A stretch of DNA of 64,000 bases, taken from contig NZ_NEFD01000007.1 of assembly GCF_002252155.1 (NCBI RefSeq), positions 1-64,000 of the forward strand, written 5' to 3'. The position numbers and the translations under genes were made by a program. The stretch is from Wohlfahrtiimonas sp. G9077 (GTDB lineage Bacteria; Pseudomonadota; Gammaproteobacteria; Cardiobacteriales; Wohlfahrtiimonadaceae). A model generated the notes under the pieces. It worked only from the letters and a program-made list of their open reading frames with translations. It made no database searches and was not told where the DNA came from. The stretch's first letter is position 1; each line of letters begins with the position of its first letter. Positions 46,417-56,527 of the stretch are shown one piece after another.

Positions 46417-46992
46417 TTATAAAGTTTCGCCGCCCACTTGACGGTTACATGGGCATAATTCGTCAGTTTGTAACGCATCTAAAATACGTAAAACTTCTGA
46501 AGGGTTACGACCTACGTTCAAACCATTTACAGATACGTGTTGGATAACGTTGTCAGGATCTACGATGAAAGTTGCGCGAAGTGCAACGCCAGCTTCTTGA
46601 TCACGAATACCTAACATATCAACCAATTCACCTTTCACATCAGCGAAAGAGTAGTGACCTAATTTGTCTAAATCTTTGTGATCACGTCTCCAAGCGAGTT
46701 TACAGAATTCGTTGTCTACGCTACCGCCCATTAATACAGCATCACGGTCTTCAAAATCTTTTGCTAATTTGTCAAAAGCAACGATTTCAGTCGGACATAC
46801 AAATGTAAAATCTTTTGGATAGAAATAGATCACTTTCCATTTGCCTGGGAAAGATTTTTCATTGATTGTTTCAAAAGCAGATACGCCGTTTTCTTCGTGG
46901 TGGTTAAAGCCAGGTTTTACGCCTACAACTTCAAACGCATCTAAACGATCACCAACAGTTTTTGAGTTACCAAAAGTGAAATCAACATCCAT
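46417..46992 (-). CDS. ahpC: Alkyl hydroperoxide reductase C-type 2-Cys peroxiredoxin
   Basis: Reduces hydrogen peroxide and organic hydroperoxides. 191 residues. The peroxidatic Cys is in DFTFVCPTE (about residues 61-69), the resolving Cys in ELCPCNRQ near the C-terminus, and RATFIVDPDNVIQH (about 139-152) is typical of AhpC/Prx1. Codon use and a strong ribosome-binding site (AAAAGGAG) suggest high expression. No ahpF lies next to it, so electrons probably come from another reductase. It has its own promoter and terminator. Confidence 0.95.
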   Translation of the reverse strand: MDVDFTFGNSKTVGDRLDAFEVVGVKPGFNHHEENGVSAFETINEKSFPGKWKVIYFYPKDFTFVCPTEIVAFDKLAKDFEDRDAVLMGGSVDNEFCKLAWRRDHKDLDKLGHYSFADVKGELVDMLGIRDQEAGVALRATFIVDPDNVIQHVSVNGLNVGRNPSEVLRILDALQTDELCPCNRQVGGETL

Positions 46993-47189: not shown

Positions 47190-48803
47190 TTATTCCTGAG
47201 GGATACCCTTTGATAAGGCAATCACTTTTTTAAATGTTTTGCGCAACAACGGCGGTACAGAGCGCATGCCACGTAAACGGGCATGATCACACACAGCAAT
47301 CGCTAAATCAGGTTTTGATGTTTTTTGTACCGCTCGCTGAATGATCTCATGAATGGGCTTATCCACAAAATCATCATTACCATAGGCAATCTCTTTATAC
47401 ACGCGGCTAAAGCCCTTTTGAAAGAGGAAATTTTCAATGTCTCGCGCAGGCAATCGCGTCACATGGCGGTAATACTCATCTTTATTTTTACAGTGTGTAC
47501 GCACCAATTTCGCATAATGTTTGCCGGCCGCATCGCCATCAGCCATCACATACCATTCAATGCCCATCGCCTCTGCATATTCCACAAGTGGCATCACGCC
47601 ACATTGGGCAAATTCCACCAGCGTAATGCCTTCTGCACTGAGATTATAGCCGCACACTTCGGCCAACTCTTTTAAGAGCCAAATCTCTGTCTCGCCTTCT
47701 ACTAAAAACCAACAGCGCGCAAAGAGCGCAATTGGCCGACGATGAAAAATATGAAACGTCACTTTGCGTTGTGTGCTGCGTGACAAACTGTTTGGCAACA
47801 CTTGATTGACGACAATTTCATTGTCGGCACGCGAGATTCTCAACACATTATGCAAAGAGACGATTGGAATTAAATCACTGCTGTTGCTCGTCAGAATTTT
47901 TTGAATGGGCAAATTGCCAAGCAGACGCATGCCAACGGACATAATCGTCGGGTGAATGCTGCCACCAAAATCTTTTAGAAATAAAATGGGCAATGCATGT
48001 TCAGACAATGAATAACCCATGCGATGGAAAATCACACTCGTAAAAAAGCGCATCATCACATTGCGCGCCGCCGAGTTATCAAGTTGATCCAATAAATCAT
48101 TGATTTTATCCAGCACCTGCCAATCTTCTAACGTCGGTTTCCGGATGTGCTCTTCTGTACTTTTGTGGCTCACTAAATAATAGGTTAAAAGAAGCGTTGC
48201 GGCATATAAGCCCTGCTCTAACTCGCGATCAGTCAATTGATGCGTGTCTTTCGTCAATTGCTGCACCAAAAGATTGTAATACGATTCGATGCGCTCATTG
48301 TCTTTACGCGTCACCGCTTCATAGGCCGCGCTGCCCCGCAAAATCAACAATGGATTGAGGTCAATCAAACACTGCAAACGCGCTTTAAAATCATCCACCA
48401 CAATTGGTTCACGCATGCCATCCACAAAACGATGCTGCGTGATGACAGTGTCCTGCATTTTACGAGCGCTCACTTCATAACAGATGCGTGACGCGTTGCC
48501 TTCGTCTAGATAACTGATGGCTTTAAGCTCAGGATAGATCGGCAAAATCGGCTTTTCTGTCGGATGCTCTTGATAAATAAAACGCACGCGTAGGCAATCA
48601 TTTGGGCAATCGCGCTCCTCAAAAAAGTCATACGGTTGGCATTGATAGAGAAAGTTCTCTTTTGTGATCATGGCAAGGGCTGAAATGAGGCTCGATGACC
48701 CCCAGCTATTTTCGCCAATTAAAACGCTCACATCATCATTGAGGTTGATCGTTAATTCACGAATCCCTTTGAATCCTTGGATTTCGATGGAATGCAGTAA
48801 CAT
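47190..48803 (-). CDS. OLD-family (YbjD-like) nuclease with altered Walker A
   Basis: A 537-residue protein with an N-terminal AAA/ABC-type ATPase (IEIQGFKGIRELTINLN, Walker A region GENSWGSSSL at 30-39) and a C-terminal TOPRIM domain (LVEGETEIWLLKELAE near 370 and ADGDAAGKHYA near 423), as in YbjD/DUF2813 proteins. The Walker A consensus GxxxxGK[ST] is broken: the Lys position is Ser36, read as TCA in the DNA. The TOPRIM acidic residues are intact. ATP binding may be weak or lost. It stands alone between ahpC and cysS with no UvrD-like partner. A DNA-repair or phage-defence role is only inferred from the family. Confidence 0.85.
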   Translation of the reverse strand: MLLHSIEIQGFKGIRELTINLNDDVSVLIGENSWGSSSLISALAMITKENFLYQCQPYDFFEERDCPNDCLRVRFIYQEHPTEKPILPIYPELKAISYLDEGNASRICYEVSARKMQDTVITQHRFVDGMREPIVVDDFKARLQCLIDLNPLLILRGSAAYEAVTRKDNERIESYYNLLVQQLTKDTHQLTDRELEQGLYAATLLLTYYLVSHKSTEEHIRKPTLEDWQVLDKINDLLDQLDNSAARNVMMRFFTSVIFHRMGYSLSEHALPILFLKDFGGSIHPTIMSVGMRLLGNLPIQKILTSNSSDLIPIVSLHNVLRISRADNEIVVNQVLPNSLSRSTQRKVTFHIFHRRPIALFARCWFLVEGETEIWLLKELAEVCGYNLSAEGITLVEFAQCGVMPLVEYAEAMGIEWYVMADGDAAGKHYAKLVRTHCKNKDEYYRHVTRLPARDIENFLFQKGFSRVYKEIAYGNDDFVDKPIHEIIQRAVQKTSKPDLAIAVCDHARLRGMRSVPPLLRKTFKKVIALSKGIPQE

Positions 48804-48951: not shown

Positions 48952-50328
48952 ATGCTCTCTATTTTTAACAGCTTAACGCGCCAACAAGAAGATTTCATCC
49001 CCATTGAGCCCAATAAAATTCGCATGTACGTGTGCGGCATGACGGTGTATGACTATTGTCACATTGGTCATGCGCGCTCTTTGATCGCCTTTGACATGAT
49101 CCGCCGTTACTTAATGCACAAAGGGTTTGATGTGCATTTTGTGCGTAACATTACAGACATCGATGACAAAATCATCAAACGTGCCAATGAACGCGGCATC
49201 ACCATTCATGAATTAACAGATGAATTCATCACGGCGATGCATGAAGACTGCGCAAAACTCAATGTATTAGCACCGGATTCTGAACCACGCGCCACAGATG
49301 CCATCGCTGGCATGATTGAACTCATTGAGGGCTTAATCAACAAAGGCCTTGCCTATGCTGTACCAGATGGCGATGTCTATTATCGCGTGCGCAGCTTTAA
49401 AGATTATGGCAAATTGTCCAATCAAAACATTGATGAATTGCGCTCAGGCGAACGCGTTGAAGTGCAATCCGATAAAGAAGATCCGTTGGATTTTGTGCTT
49501 TGGAAACGCGCCAAAGCCGGCGAACCTTACTGGGATTCACCTTGGGGACAAGGTCGCCCAGGTTGGCACATTGAATGCTCTGTGATGAGTAAAGAGACCC
49601 TTGGTCACCATTTTGACATTCATGGCGGCGGTATGGATTTAAAATTCCCGCATCATGAATGTGAAATTGCCCAATCTGAAGGCTACCACGAAGAACCGAT
49701 GGCCAATTATTGGATGCACAATGGCTTTATTAACATCAACAACGAAAAAATGAGTAAATCTCTCGGTAACTTCTTCACCATCCGCGATGTGCTCAAATAT
49801 TTTCCGGCAGAAGTGTTGCGCTTTTTCATGCTCAACAGCCATTATCGCACCCATGTGAACTATTCAGATGATTTGCTCAATCAAGCATGGAATGGTTTAC
49901 GCCGCTTGTACACAGCCCTTAATGATGCGCCTGATGAATTGCCAGCCTTTGATCCTCATCATCCGATTGCTGTACGTTTCAGTGACGTGATGGATGATGA
50001 TTTCAATACGCCACAAGCCATCGATTTACTCTTTGAGGCGGCCAATCTTTATAACAAACATCATGATCCTAAAGATTATGTGGTGCTCAAAACATTGGGC
50101 AATGTACTAGGCTTATTAGAAGCAAATCCGGATCACTTCTTAAAAAGTGCCCCTAACCAAAGCGATGATGACACTGATTTGATCGAAGCATTGATTGCAG
50201 AACGCAACGAAGCCCGCGCCAATAAGAACTGGGCAGAATCAGATCGCATCCGCGATGAACTCAAAGCGCGCAATGTTGTCCTTGAAGATAAACAAGGCAA
50301 AACCACATGGCGCCGCGAAACACAATAA
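48952..50328 (+). CDS. cysS: Cysteinyl-tRNA synthetase
   Basis: Charges tRNA-Cys. 458 residues, the usual length. Class I signatures: GMTVYDYCHIGHARS (HIGH at about 37-40), zinc-binding Cys/His in ECSVMSK and FPHHECEIAQSE, and NEKMSKSLGNF (KMSKS near 266-270). A C-terminal anticodon-binding part ends in DDKQGKTTWRR-like sequence. A 148-bp region upstream holds no strong promoter that I can point to. Confidence 0.97.
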   Translation: MLSIFNSLTRQQEDFIPIEPNKIRMYVCGMTVYDYCHIGHARSLIAFDMIRRYLMHKGFDVHFVRNITDIDDKIIKRANERGITIHELTDEFITAMHEDCAKLNVLAPDSEPRATDAIAGMIELIEGLINKGLAYAVPDGDVYYRVRSFKDYGKLSNQNIDELRSGERVEVQSDKEDPLDFVLWKRAKAGEPYWDSPWGQGRPGWHIECSVMSKETLGHHFDIHGGGMDLKFPHHECEIAQSEGYHEEPMANYWMHNGFININNEKMSKSLGNFFTIRDVLKYFPAEVLRFFMLNSHYRTHVNYSDDLLNQAWNGLRRLYTALNDAPDELPAFDPHHPIAVRFSDVMDDDFNTPQAIDLLFEAANLYNKHHDPKDYVVLKTLGNVLGLLEANPDHFLKSAPNQSDDDTDLIEALIAERNEARANKNWAESDRIRDELKARNVVLEDKQGKTTWRRETQ

Positions 50329-52124: not shown

Positions 52125-55100
52125 TTATTTGTGCGCTGCGTCCTCATGATTTTTCTCATAAATGGCATGCTCTTTTTGACCAAAGCGCTTACCGATTAAA
52201 GAGAAGAAGACTGGCGCATAAAAGAGCACCAACAATGTCCCGCCAATCATCCCACCAATCACGGTTCGACCCACAACGTTTTGTGCACCAGAACCTGCGC
52301 CATTACTGAGCGCCATTGGCAATACACCAAAACCAAAGGCAAGAGATGTCATGATGATCGGACGCAAGCGAAGATGCGCTGCTTCCACCGTTGCTTCCAC
52401 AATGTTTTTGCCTTGTAAGAGCAAGTCCTTGGCAAACTCAATGATCAAGATGGCATTTTTAGAGGTCAAACCAAGCACTGTCAATAAGCCCACTTGGAAA
52501 TAGACGTCATTTTGAATGTCCACCAAGTTTGCCGCAGCCACCGCACCAATCACACCCACCGGCAATGTGAAGATCACCGCAAATGGAATCGACCAAGATT
52601 CATACAATGCAGCCAAGCTTAGGAAGATGACAAAAATAGAGATGATATAGAGATAAATCTGCATGTTCCCTGTTTTGCGCTCTTCATAGGATGTGTCTGT
52701 CCATTGCACTTGCACGCCATCTAAATATTGCTGTGTAATGGCCTCAATCTCATTCATCACTTCACCGGTACTAAAACCATGTTTGGCTTCAATGGAAAAT
52801 GGGAAGGCTGAATAACCATCAAAGCGGTTCAATTGCGGTGAACCTTGTGTCCAACGCGTGCTGGCAAAGGCACTGAATGGCACCATTTGACCCACTTTAT
52901 TGCGTACATACCATTTATCAAAGTCTTCAGGTTGCATGCGATACTCAGCATCCCCTTGCAATAAAACTTTCTTAATGCGACCGCGATCCACAAAGTCATT
53001 GACATACAAGCTACCCCACGCAATCGCTAAGGAGCTGTTGATGTCACCGACGGTAATTTGTAATGCACGGGCTTTTTCTTGGTCAATGTCCACATGCAGC
53101 TGCGGACCATCAAACTGACCACTTGGGCGCAATGTCTGAACGTTCATGGTTTTTGATTGTGTGGCCACAATGCCCATAAACTTCATCACTTCACCCATAA
53201 ATTGCTGATGCGGCAATCCGGTGACGTTTTGCAATGTGAACGACACACCAGAGGCTGTACCAAGCTCAATAATTGCAGGCGGCGCAAATACGAAACCTTG
53301 TGTACTTGGAATCGTATGTAAATACTCTGCCAAACGCTTTTGAATCGCCGCCAATTTCTGAGCAGGATCCTTACGCTCGCTCCAATCTTTAAGTTTTAAG
53401 AAGAATAAACCATGCTGACCACCGCGACCGCCAAAGCTAAAGCCTGAAATCGCCATAATGGCATCGATGGAGTTTTTCTCTTCCGTCAAAACATGATTGG
53501 AGATTTGCTCCAAAATATCGCTTGTGATGTCAAGCGCGGTACCATCTGGGCCAATCGTCATCCCAATCAGAATCCCTTGATCCTCATCAGGCAAGAAGCT
53601 TGTGGGCAAGCGTGAAAAACCATAATAGATCAACGCAAGCATCGCAAAAAATGCCACAACATAACGTTTCGGATGCGTCACAGCATGCGTTGCACCGCCA
53701 CGATAACGTTGATTCATGCGATCAAACCAGTTGTTAAACTTCGTCACCGGCCAATCCACAACGCGCCCAACGGCTGCAAAGATTTTACCAATCCCTTTAG
53801 GTTCCGTTTTATCATGCGGCGATTTTAAAATCGTGGCACACAACGCGGATGTAAAGATGATGGCACACACCACAGATAACGACATCGCCGTGATGATGGT
53901 AATCGAGAACTGACGATAAATCACGCCGGATGCACCACTTAAGAAGGCCATCGGCACGAATACCGCGGACAATACAACGGCAATCCCCACCAATGCACTG
54001 GTGATTTGATCCATCGATTTACGGGTGGCTTCAATGGGGGATAAACCCTCTTCTTCCATAATACGCTCAACGTTTTCCACCACAACAATGGCATCATCCA
54101 CAAGCAAACCGATGGCCAATACCATCGCAAAGAGCGTCAGCGTATTGAGGGTAAAACCAAAAACATCTAACACCGCAAATGTCCCAAGCAACACAACAGG
54201 AATCGCCAATGTGGGAATGATGGTGGCGCGAATGTTACGTAAGAAGAGATACATCACCACAAACACTAAAGCCACGGCTTCAATCAATGTTTTGACAACG
54301 TTGTGAATGGAGATTTCAACAAATGGCGTGGTGTCATATGGAAAGGCATAATCAATGCCTTCTGGCAATAACACAGATAAACGCTTTAAGGTGTCTTTAA
54401 CATCATGCGCGGTGTCTAAAGCGTTCGCACCAGAAGCTAGACTTAAACCCAATGCCGCTGAAGATTGGTTGTTATATTTTGCATCAAAGGCGGTGGATTC
54501 TGCTGCCAATTCGATGCGCGCCACATCGGCTAAACGCACTTGGCTACCATCTTCATTCACACGCAATTGAATGTCTTCAAATTGTTCGACCGATTCCAAT
54601 TGTGTTTGTGCGGTGATGGTAAAGTTAATCTCTTGACCGGGCACCGTTGGCGTTGCACCCAATTGACCAAAGGCCACTTGCGTATTTTGCTCTTTAATGG
54701 CGGATAAAACATCCATCGGCGTCATGCCATATTTATTCAGCAGATAAGGATCTAGCCATACACGCATCGCATAACCTGAACCAAAGAACTGAATGTCCCC
54801 AAGCCCATTAATACGACTAATGGTGTCTTTAATGTTGGTGTTGATGAAATCGCCAATGTCCGCATTGCTGTATTTGCCATCTTTAGAGTAGAAACTCACC
54901 ACCATAAAGAAGGAACCGGAAGATTTTTGTACCGTCACGCCTTGGCGCTGTACATCTTCTGGCAATGTGGATAATGCGGTTTGAATCTTGTTTTGTACCT
55001 GAACCTGTGCCATGTCAGGATCGACCCCTTGGTTAAAGGTCAACGTAATCTGAAAGCTCCCTTGGCTCGTGCTCGATGAGTTCATATAACGAAAACCATC

Positions 55101-55316
55101 TAAACCCGATAAGTTCTGCTCGATCACCTGCGTGACACTGTTTTCAATCGTGGTGGCGTTTGCCCCAGGATACATCCCGACAATGGAGACTTGAGGCGGT
55201 GCAATTTCAGGATATTGTGCCACTGGCAAAGAGCGCAGCGACAAAATCCCTAAAAACATGGTTAAGATCGCAAGCACCCATGCAAAGATGGGGCGATCTA
55301 TAAAAAAGCGAGCCAT
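52125..55316 (-). CDS. RND multidrug efflux pump, inner membrane component (AcrB/HAE1 type)
   Basis: A 1063-residue proton-driven drug exporter. N-terminal FFIDRPIFAWVLAILTMFLG and LPVAQYPEIAPP, the proton-relay pair in LLVDDAIVVVENVER (TM4, about residues 405-419), FLPDEDQG opening the second half, and GLTSKNAILIIEFAKD in TM10 with the conserved Lys. It overall resembles AcrB/MexB. Encoded 17 bp after the membrane-fusion protein; no outer-membrane channel gene follows, so it probably uses a TolC-like protein encoded elsewhere. Confidence 0.95.
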   Translation of the reverse strand: MARFFIDRPIFAWVLAILTMFLGILSLRSLPVAQYPEIAPPQVSIVGMYPGANATTIENSVTQVIEQNLSGLDGFRYMNSSSTSQGSFQITLTFNQGVDPDMAQVQVQNKIQTALSTLPEDVQRQGVTVQKSSGSFFMVVSFYSKDGKYSNADIGDFINTNIKDTISRINGLGDIQFFGSGYAMRVWLDPYLLNKYGMTPMDVLSAIKEQNTQVAFGQLGATPTVPGQEINFTITAQTQLESVEQFEDIQLRVNEDGSQVRLADVARIELAAESTAFDAKYNNQSSAALGLSLASGANALDTAHDVKDTLKRLSVLLPEGIDYAFPYDTTPFVEISIHNVVKTLIEAVALVFVVMYLFLRNIRATIIPTLAIPVVLLGTFAVLDVFGFTLNTLTLFAMVLAIGLLVDDAIVVVENVERIMEEEGLSPIEATRKSMDQITSALVGIAVVLSAVFVPMAFLSGASGVIYRQFSITIITAMSLSVVCAIIFTSALCATILKSPHDKTEPKGIGKIFAAVGRVVDWPVTKFNNWFDRMNQRYRGGATHAVTHPKRYVVAFFAMLALIYYGFSRLPTSFLPDEDQGILIGMTIGPDGTALDITSDILEQISNHVLTEEKNSIDAIMAISGFSFGGRGGQHGLFFLKLKDWSERKDPAQKLAAIQKRLAEYLHTIPSTQGFVFAPPAIIELGTASGVSFTLQNVTGLPHQQFMGEVMKFMGIVATQSKTMNVQTLRPSGQFDGPQLHVDIDQEKARALQITVGDINSSLAIAWGSLYVNDFVDRGRIKKVLLQGDAEYRMQPEDFDKWYVRNKVGQMVPFSAFASTRWTQGSPQLNRFDGYSAFPFSIEAKHGFSTGEVMNEIEAITQQYLDGVQVQWTDTSYEERKTGNMQIYLYIISIFVIFLSLAALYESWSIPFAVIFTLPVGVIGAVAAANLVDIQNDVYFQVGLLTVLGLTSKNAILIIEFAKDLLLQGKNIVEATVEAAHLRLRPIIMTSLAFGFGVLPMALSNGAGSGAQNVVGRTVIGGMIGGTLLVLFYAPVFFSLIGKRFGQKEHAIYEKNHEDAAHK

Positions 55317-55333
55317 ATGTATTCCCTTCCCTG

Positions 55334-56527
55334 TTAGTGAGTTTGCGTCGGTGCATCATTGGCAATGTTCAGCGGCACTTTATCCGTACGGCGCATCATA
55401 CTTTGCACCTGCTGAATGCCCTCAATCACCACTTGTTCACCGGCTTTTAAACCTTGGGAGATGAGCCAGTTATTGCCATTGGCATGCTCAATTTCCACAG
55501 GACGCACCTCAGCAATGTTGCCTTGACCCACCACGATCACAAAGGCTTGACCTTTTGGATCACGATAAATGGCTTTTTGTGGAATCTGAATGGCATCTTT
55601 CTGAATGCCTTGATCCACAATCGAACGCACAAACATCCCCGGCAACAATAATTGATCAGGATTGGGGAATTCGGCTTGAATTAAAATGGAGCCCGTTGTA
55701 GGGTCAACTGTGCGATCAGAGAATTTCACCACGCCAGCCTCAGGATAGATTGAGCCATCATCCATCACTAAGTGCACAGTGAAATTATTATCATCAATGG
55801 CACCCGGCACAGGATTGATTAATGTGCCATCACGGAATTTCTTCTGCATGCGCGTAAAATCTTTTGCAGAATAGGTAATGTCCACACGCATTGGATCATT
55901 TTGCTGAATCACAGCCATTTCCATCGCTTGCCCTGCCGTCACCAATGCACCTTGCGTATAATTAGAGCGGCCAATTTGACCACTAATGGGCGCCAACATT
56001 TTGGTGTAATTTAAGCTGATTTCAGCATTATTCACTTCTGCTTTTGCAGCGGACACTTGGGCATTGGCTTGGATCAATGCCGCATTGGCATCATCGACAT
56101 CTTGTTTGCTCACCGCTTTTGATGAAGACAACGCATTGATGCGTTTTGCCTTTTCAGCCGCGGCATATTGATTGGCTTTGGCCTGTTCTAATTTTGCTTC
56201 GGCAATTTTAAGCGCTGCATCATAAATGGCCGGATCAATTTGATAAAGCGTCGTGCCCTCTTCAACATAAGAGCCCTCTACAAAGTGACGATTTAAAATG
56301 ATGCCACCCACTTGTGGGCGCACTTCAGCAATTTTAGAAGCCTTTGTGCGGCCGGGTAATTCTGCTTTGACCAACACATCTTGGGCTTGTGTGGTATAAG
56401 TCACCACTTTGACAGGCGGCACACCTGCAGCTTGCTGAGCACTTTTATCGTCGGAACATGCCGATAGCGCCAATGCGCCCGCCATGACCAACAGCCATTT
56501 CTGATTGGACAACAATTTTCTCATCAT
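55334..56527 (-). CDS. RND efflux membrane-fusion protein (AcrA type)
   Basis: A 397-residue periplasmic adaptor lipoprotein: lipobox LSAC (Cys near residue 24), a biotinyl-lipoyl-like region (LPGRTKASKIAEVRPQVGGIILNRHFVEGSYVEEGTTLYQIDP), a helical hairpin (about 95-160) and the beta-barrel region with PISGQIGRSNYTQGALV. It bridges the RND pump and the outer-membrane channel. Located 23 bp after the MarR gene, in the same operon. Confidence 0.94.
   Translation of the reverse strand: MMRKLLSNQKWLLVMAGALALSACSDDKSAQQAAGVPPVKVVTYTTQAQDVLVKAELPGRTKASKIAEVRPQVGGIILNRHFVEGSYVEEGTTLYQIDPAIYDAALKIAEAKLEQAKANQYAAAEKAKRINALSSSKAVSKQDVDDANAALIQANAQVSAAKAEVNNAEISLNYTKMLAPISGQIGRSNYTQGALVTAGQAMEMAVIQQNDPMRVDITYSAKDFTRMQKKFRDGTLINPVPGAIDDNNFTVHLVMDDGSIYPEAGVVKFSDRTVDPTTGSILIQAEFPNPDQLLLPGMFVRSIVDQGIQKDAIQIPQKAIYRDPKGQAFVIVVGQGNIAEVRPVEIEHANGNNWLISQGLKAGEQVVIEGIQQVQSMMRRTDKVPLNIANDAPTQTH

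Follow-up and report, generated by a model that had tools for sequence, protein, structure and literature searches.

Can an OLD-family protein work without ATP hydrolysis if its Toprim nuclease site is intact? The question is raised by a gene in the stretch of DNA analysed here (the window, 64,000 nucleotides of Wohlfahrtiimonas sp. G9077), which occupies positions 47190..48803 on the minus strand and forms a complete open reading frame of 537 amino acids with an ATG start; the plus strand, read from 47190, contains many stops. A Pfam search of the protein assigned residues 1-359 to DUF2813 (E 7.1e-72; 243 bits compared with a cut-off of 21) and residues 360-424 to OLD-like_TOPRIM (E 5.1e-14), with an additional match to AAA_15 (E 6.2e-10). 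The protein belongs to the OLD family by its N-terminal ABC-type ATPase homology and its C-terminal Toprim domain of the OLD type. DUF2813 is a domain which we take to be that of Escherichia coli YbjD, and a Salinivibrio homologue is likewise annotated as DUF2813. Membership in the YbjD subgroup is indicated by the full-length DUF2813 match and by a phylogenetic tree, in which the protein is placed among the YbjD proteins and apart from two Gabija-like rows with a support of 100/100. The best matches in a plasmid collection, which also includes chromosome-sized records, were an Aeromonas protein (36% identity) and E. coli YbjD (35%), both over 99% of the length. The corresponding protein of W. 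chitiniclastica DSM 18708 is 98% identical, and a single copy of the gene was found in the genome to which the window belongs. The phage collection yielded no match to the protein, and no relative was found in the viral contigs scanned with a YbjD alignment.

The gene is located between cysS, which is divergently oriented (48952..50328, plus strand), and a downstream gene for a peroxiredoxin of the AhpC/TSA type (46417..46992, minus strand) at a distance of 197 bp, and the six Wohlfahrtiimonas species examined share both neighbours. There was no sign of a functional link between the peroxiredoxin gene and the ybjD-type gene of the window. The best PADLOC model for the protein was that of Gabija GajA, a Class 2 OLD protein (PDLC00094, E 1.2e-68). 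However, no UvrD-like GajB was identified by Pfam among ten adjacent or nearby open reading frames, and neither a helicase nor a reverse transcriptase nor any other defence gene occurred among the neighbours (five proteins including YbjD by PADLOC, ten open reading frames by Pfam). The gene thus stands alone, lacking a helicase, a retron or a split partner, and is by its context a Class 1 OLD gene. This agrees with the description in a first-pass annotation of the DNA, which had noted the absence of a helicase; its suggestion that the protein might need a partner receives no support from the gene context. Further genes near cysS include those for an AcrB-type RND efflux pump and a HlyD/CusB-type adaptor at 52125-56527 of the window; an RND pump gene also lies near cysS at four other loci of the genus, where the intervening genes differ.

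No match to the protein was obtained in 12 other genomes of the same family, and no OLD match was present at the 11 cysS loci found in these genomes, which were searched together with flanks of roughly 1.5 kb wherever the contig is long enough. At the level of the order, the strong DUF2813 matches are the six of Wohlfahrtiimonas (E <= 2e-62), the next being at 4e-8. In E. coli, ybjD is found between aqpZ and ybjX instead of between cysS and the peroxiredoxin gene. Besides this location, E. coli ybjD is annotated on four records of 42-88 kb which are filed as plasmids (NZ_CP134387.1, NZ_CP148399.1, NZ_CP148584.1 and NZ_CP148327.1), and a ybjD-like frame (L080, positions 1001-2557 of NZ_MT039179.1) adjoins a gene of the VirK/YbjX family on a conjugative plasmid of Serratia proteamaculans. 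Only from residue 33 of the query onwards does L080 match, and the gene table, which is inherently incomplete, has no entry at this place.

The P-loop of the protein, GENSWGSSSL, comprises residues 30-39 (48687..48716, minus strand), and Ser36, encoded by TCA at 48696-48698, replaces the Walker A lysine, as the first-pass annotation had observed. The same serine was found in all six species-level genomes of the genus (that of the window, L002/L006, L003/L008, L004/L009, L005/L007 and L010), four of which are also present as public records; the codon is TCA in five species and TCG in one. Lysine, which in other strains would have pointed to a sequencing error, occurs in none of these six genomes. 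As the serine is present in all six species and the gene always resides between cysS and the peroxiredoxin gene, an erroneous base call or assembly at this codon, for which no supporting point was found, can safely be dismissed.

A second substitution had been overlooked in the first-pass annotation. The degenerate Walker B motif with the D-loop, PILFLKDFGGSIHP, is located at residues 272-285 (47949..47990, minus strand; E. coli YbjD: PLLLIEDPETRLHP), and here Lys277 (47973-47975) replaces glutamate. This lysine is present in all six species, while 40 YbjD proteins from elsewhere have glutamate (39) or aspartate (1) at this position. The other species of the genus read PILCIKNF-GNTHP, PILCLKNF-GNTHP, PILVFKNFGGNMHP or PILVFKSFGGNMHP. 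Position 278 is asparagine in three, aspartate in two and serine in one of the six; position 280, a glutamate in each of the 40 other YbjD proteins, is glycine in four species and a gap in two. In contrast, Ser36, Lys277 and Phe279 are fixed in the six species, and position 37 is serine or threonine in all of them. In a profile alignment, E276 of the OLD protein from Thermus scotoductus (Ts OLD; PDB 6P74, Class 1) corresponds to position 277 and its D-loop residue H283 to the retained His284. For this reason the D-loop does not figure among the losses, and position 282 was rejected as its residue. The H-loop, KILTSNSSDLI (residues 302-312; 47868..47900, minus strand), has Asn307 where the Gabija-like protein L013 has histidine; asparagine is usual among YbjD proteins (39 of the 40 outside the genus), and the ABC signature is degenerate in all Class 1 OLD proteins (PMC7049728). 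Neither feature is a novelty.

Both residues that are typical of a functional P-loop ATPase, the Walker A lysine and the acidic, magnesium-binding Walker B residue, are therefore replaced in 6/6 species. In Ts OLD, which shares the ATPase-Toprim architecture, ATP is hydrolysed by means of K34 and E276, and the substitutions K34A and E276A each abolish the ATPase activity (PMC7049728); Walker A was matched to K34 through the shared motif, and K35 of GajA aligned at the same position. An altered Walker B motif does not by itself necessarily abolish the activity of an OLD ATPase, since ATPase activity of the archaeal OLD protein Cran1 was not significantly affected by single alanine substitutions in Walker B (PMC12796447). 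The loss of Walker B in addition to that of Walker A nevertheless gives better support to the absence of a normal ATPase cycle than the lysine alone, on which the first-pass annotation had relied, and it is well supported that the OLD protein of the window is incapable of such a cycle.

To place these substitutions, the protein was compared with 40 YbjD proteins from outside the genus, 14 from records of the plasmid collection and 26 from genomes of a phylum-wide draw. The plasmid collection had provided 28 near-full-length matches, of which 14 were omitted because their species, or apparently their strain group, was already represented. In the phylum draw (398 genomes), 31 matched. Apart from the window's own genome, 26 were accepted as YbjD; the remaining four, weaker and from other classes, were set aside, two of them being Gabija-like (L112, L114), one yielding no open reading frame (L113) and one lacking a locus. 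L084 was left out of the comparison, and L007-L009 were dropped as copies. A class-wide draw of 369 genomes, with at most five candidates scored per genome, gave a clear YbjD from the window's genome alone. Five of the next strong DUF2813 matches in this draw (L013-L017) were classed on visual inspection as different OLD proteins, and a UvrD-like frame adjoins two of these (L013, L014). As Spot 42 RNA was detected in only one of the 369 genomes, below its cut-off and under stricter filters, the class draw seems to miss the orders that bear YbjD.

Among the 40 proteins, the Walker A residue is lysine in 39 (including L080, counted despite its damaged N-terminus) and arginine in one (L110, of family f195). 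With two more proteins (L115, L116), lysine is kept in 39 of 42 outside Wohlfahrtiimonas, so that the serine pattern is more than chance. The three exceptions all belong to a single genus, g306 of family f195, a family in which the gene is present in three of five genomes. Their Walker A motifs read GRRSF (L110 and L116, from genomes G588 and G775) and GHRSF (L115, from G778). Like the protein of the window, they have lost the Walker A lysine (to arginine, histidine and arginine, respectively) with the Toprim residues intact; unlike it, they have Arg37 and keep Asp277 and Glu280 in Walker B (LLLLDMPEARLHP), which reads LLLLDMPE. In the tree, the f195 proteins are set apart from those of Wohlfahrtiimonas, which requires two changes, although both groups are on long branches and a joint clade is not rejected (p-AU 0.17). 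The different replacements (serine as opposed to arginine or histidine, and KDFG as opposed to DMPE in Walker B) argue for two events as well, and the f195 proteins thus probably represent a second, independent loss of the Walker A lysine.

The Toprim half (residues 359-537; 47193..47729, minus strand) does not share these changes. E369 and E373 within VEGETE and D422 and D424 of the DGD motif, which the first-pass annotation had correctly listed as retained, are accompanied by D455, E457 and K497, and none of the seven varies among the 46 proteins compared (six from Wohlfahrtiimonas and 40 other YbjD). In Ts OLD, E377, D381, D431 and D433 align with E369, E373, D422 and D424. As all acidic residues for two-metal binding (E369, E373, D422, D424, D455 and E457) are present, the Toprim domain may be the catalytic part of the protein.

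The two halves also differ in overall constraint. Of the positions conserved in 36 other YbjD proteins, 70 lie in the ATPase half and 55 in the Toprim half; all six Wohlfahrtiimonas proteins have lost 27 of the former and 7 of the latter (Fisher p 0.0012). With 38 reference rows, L080 and L110 being left out, the values are 30/76 and 8/56. Such a skew is not unique to the genus: f195 has lost 15/70 and 3/55 (p 0.019) and L107 14/76 and 3/56 (p 0.035). L109 (16/75 and 8/56) is hardly skewed, and the values are 3/71 and 3/55 for Aeromonas, 7/72 and 4/57 for L106, 5/72 and 1/55 for Proteus and 3/72 and 1/55 for L103. The ATPase share of Wohlfahrtiimonas is, however, the largest of the groups tried. 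Four pairs across Wohlfahrtiimonas lineages are 86-88% identical in the Toprim half and 59-63% in the ATPase half, compared with 70-86% in the ATPase half for those other YbjD pairs (47) whose Toprim identity is in the 85-90% bin, the pairs in both sets being not independent. The eight pairs that include the protein of the window or that of W. chitiniclastica have a Toprim identity of 76-78% and an ATPase identity of 54-61%. They fall into the lower part of the range of 27 others in the 75-80% bin (55-69%) or below it, and the ranges overlap. L080, L108 and L111 were excluded from the identity pairs, the tree and the lost-position count, and L006 and L114 additionally from the tree.

Such a pattern might be taken as the sign of a gene whose ATPase half drifts after loss of function, the more so as this half is only 54-63% identical between the three lineages, while in the four more distant species the neighbouring cysS is 89-90% and the peroxiredoxin 95-98% identical to that of the window. 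Decay is nonetheless quite improbable. The open reading frame is intact in all six species, the P-loop and the substituted residues are fixed and the Toprim residues are kept. Since dS is saturated in most distant pairs, dN/dS was determined for three close pairs only and amounted to 0.045, 0.051 and 0.068 in the ATPase half and 0.058, 0.017 and 0.057 in the Toprim half, i.e. to about 0.05 in both halves. The gene is under purifying selection, and the pattern in the ATPase half looks like remodelling and not like decay. Within the P-loop region (residues 26-39), the six species agree at 13 of 14 positions. Only seven of 345 segments of the ATPase half reach this value; besides the P-loop itself, these are the segments that start at 197 and 222-226. 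The stretch KPTLEDWQVLDKINDLLD (residues 222-239; 48087-48140, minus strand) is among the three most conserved of the ATPase half within the genus and only partly resembles E. coli YbjD; it is a possible genus-specific contact surface.

The strong conservation of the P-loop suggests that something may still bind there. Accordingly, the protein might act as a sensor which binds a nucleotide by the P-loop backbone without hydrolysing it, the bound nucleotide repressing the nuclease or its toxicity as in GajA until phage-driven depletion releases it. GajA of Bacillus cereus is devoid of ATPase activity, and nucleotides inhibit it (PMC8136825); its K35A variant is unchanged in both cleavage and nucleotide inhibition, and H320A partly relieves the inhibition. 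Loss of the lysine alone is therefore no proof of lost binding. A sulfate at the beta-phosphate site of Ts OLD is held by the main chain of G31, G33 and K34 and by the hydroxyl of Thr35 (PMC7049728), and the serine or threonine at position 37 in 6/6 species would suit such a contact. Unlike the protein of the window, GajA keeps Lys35 and a Walker B motif (EEPE) and pairs with the helicase GajB. Two points count against a sensor: the magnesium-coordinating Walker B acid is lysine in all six species, and K35A alone already alters the behaviour of E. coli YbjD, which becomes more toxic (PMC13261556). We regard such a nucleotide sensor as a less likely alternative. Nor does it follow from the lost lysine that the enzyme is unregulated, a possibility raised in the first-pass annotation, as the P-loop is still strongly conserved and GajA K35A continues to respond to ATP (PMC8136825).

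In P-loop proteins the Walker B acid sits beside the P-loop, which counts in favour of another reading, namely that Lys277 now contacts phosphate in place of the missing Walker A lysine and permits nucleotide or phosphate binding independent of metal, for which the WNK kinases provide an analogy. The former ATP site might then be a metal-free pocket for phosphate or a signal ligand that controls the Toprim nuclease, and, if this were true, the protein would represent a kind of OLD that senses something other than Mg-ATP. Ser36 and Lys277 are fixed together in the six species; however, that both arose on a single branch does not prove that they are coupled, and residues 278-282 are rearranged too, with a deletion of one residue in two species. 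The AlphaFold2 model, obtained from the protein of the window and four sequences of the genus, is unusable for distances (mean pLDDT 39.7, pTM 0.25). We therefore consider a relocated lysine, and likewise a pocket of this kind, unlikely.

The reading that we prefer, at a probability of roughly one in two, is that of a chromosomal YbjD-type Class 1 OLD protein that lacks ATP hydrolysis, in which the former ATPase would be a scaffold and the Toprim domain the catalytic part, its nuclease not being gated by an ATP cycle. The ABC ATPase domain may persist as a folded scaffold for dimerisation and target recognition, or, more generally, as a scaffold or sensor for the Toprim nuclease, which would run free of the hydrolysis cycle; the nuclease could be restrained by the need to recognise a substrate or a phage product, by low expression or by a ligand at the conserved P-loop. 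This reading is made plausible by E. coli YbjD, proposed as the Class 1 protein OldB (PMC13261556), a full-length homologue which shares with the protein of the window the DUF2813 and Toprim domains, the stand-alone gene, the Toprim residues and the H-loop asparagine, and which differs in having Lys35 and the Walker B motif LLLIEDPETRLHP in place of Ser36 and ILFLKDFGGSIHP. Induced E. coli YbjD reduces the number of plaques of phages Bas18 and Bas20 and makes those of Bas64-Bas68 smaller, deletion of the gene by itself is without effect, and the protein differs from P2 Old in its action on recBC (PMC13261556). As the K35A mutant retains restriction with raised toxicity in that study, hydrolysis-free action is plausible, and the protein of the window would, by analogy, be much like a natural counterpart of this engineered mutant. 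The same study found that restriction requires the ATPase domain and that the Toprim domain is dispensable, which argues against putting all weight on the nuclease.

Other OLD proteins bear on this reading from both sides. DNA cleavage by Ts OLD is largely independent of ATP (PMC7049728), which favours it, as do the skewed loss of ATPase positions and the low ATPase identity at high Toprim identity. In turn, the skew in f195 and L107 and the overlapping ranges of the eight pairs speak against it, as does P2 OLD, which requires the Walker A lysine for killing in vivo (PMC7049728). The generalization in the first-pass annotation that the nuclease of known OLD proteins is under the control of ATP hydrolysis is thus only partly right, in view of P2 OLD on the one side and of Ts OLD and GajA on the other (PMC7049728, PMC8136825). 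Among the matches listed in a search of the open-access literature, no report of a natural OLD protein without Walker motifs was found, and no paper on phage defence in Wohlfahrtiimonas was found in that literature. Judged by its residues, the combination of two lost Walker motifs with an intact Toprim site is a new natural variant of OLD, while the OLD/YbjD family itself is known.

For annotation, the finding means that software which detects defence systems by means of GajA models could label the gene of the window as part of a Gabija system, although no GajB adjoins it. For the family, it concerns the question of whether the OLD ATPase serves as engine, sensor or scaffold, which Ts OLD, P2 OLD, GajA and E. 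coli YbjD answer differently. By combining the loss of both Walker motifs with a preserved Toprim site, Wohlfahrtiimonas provides a natural experiment on the role of this ATPase.
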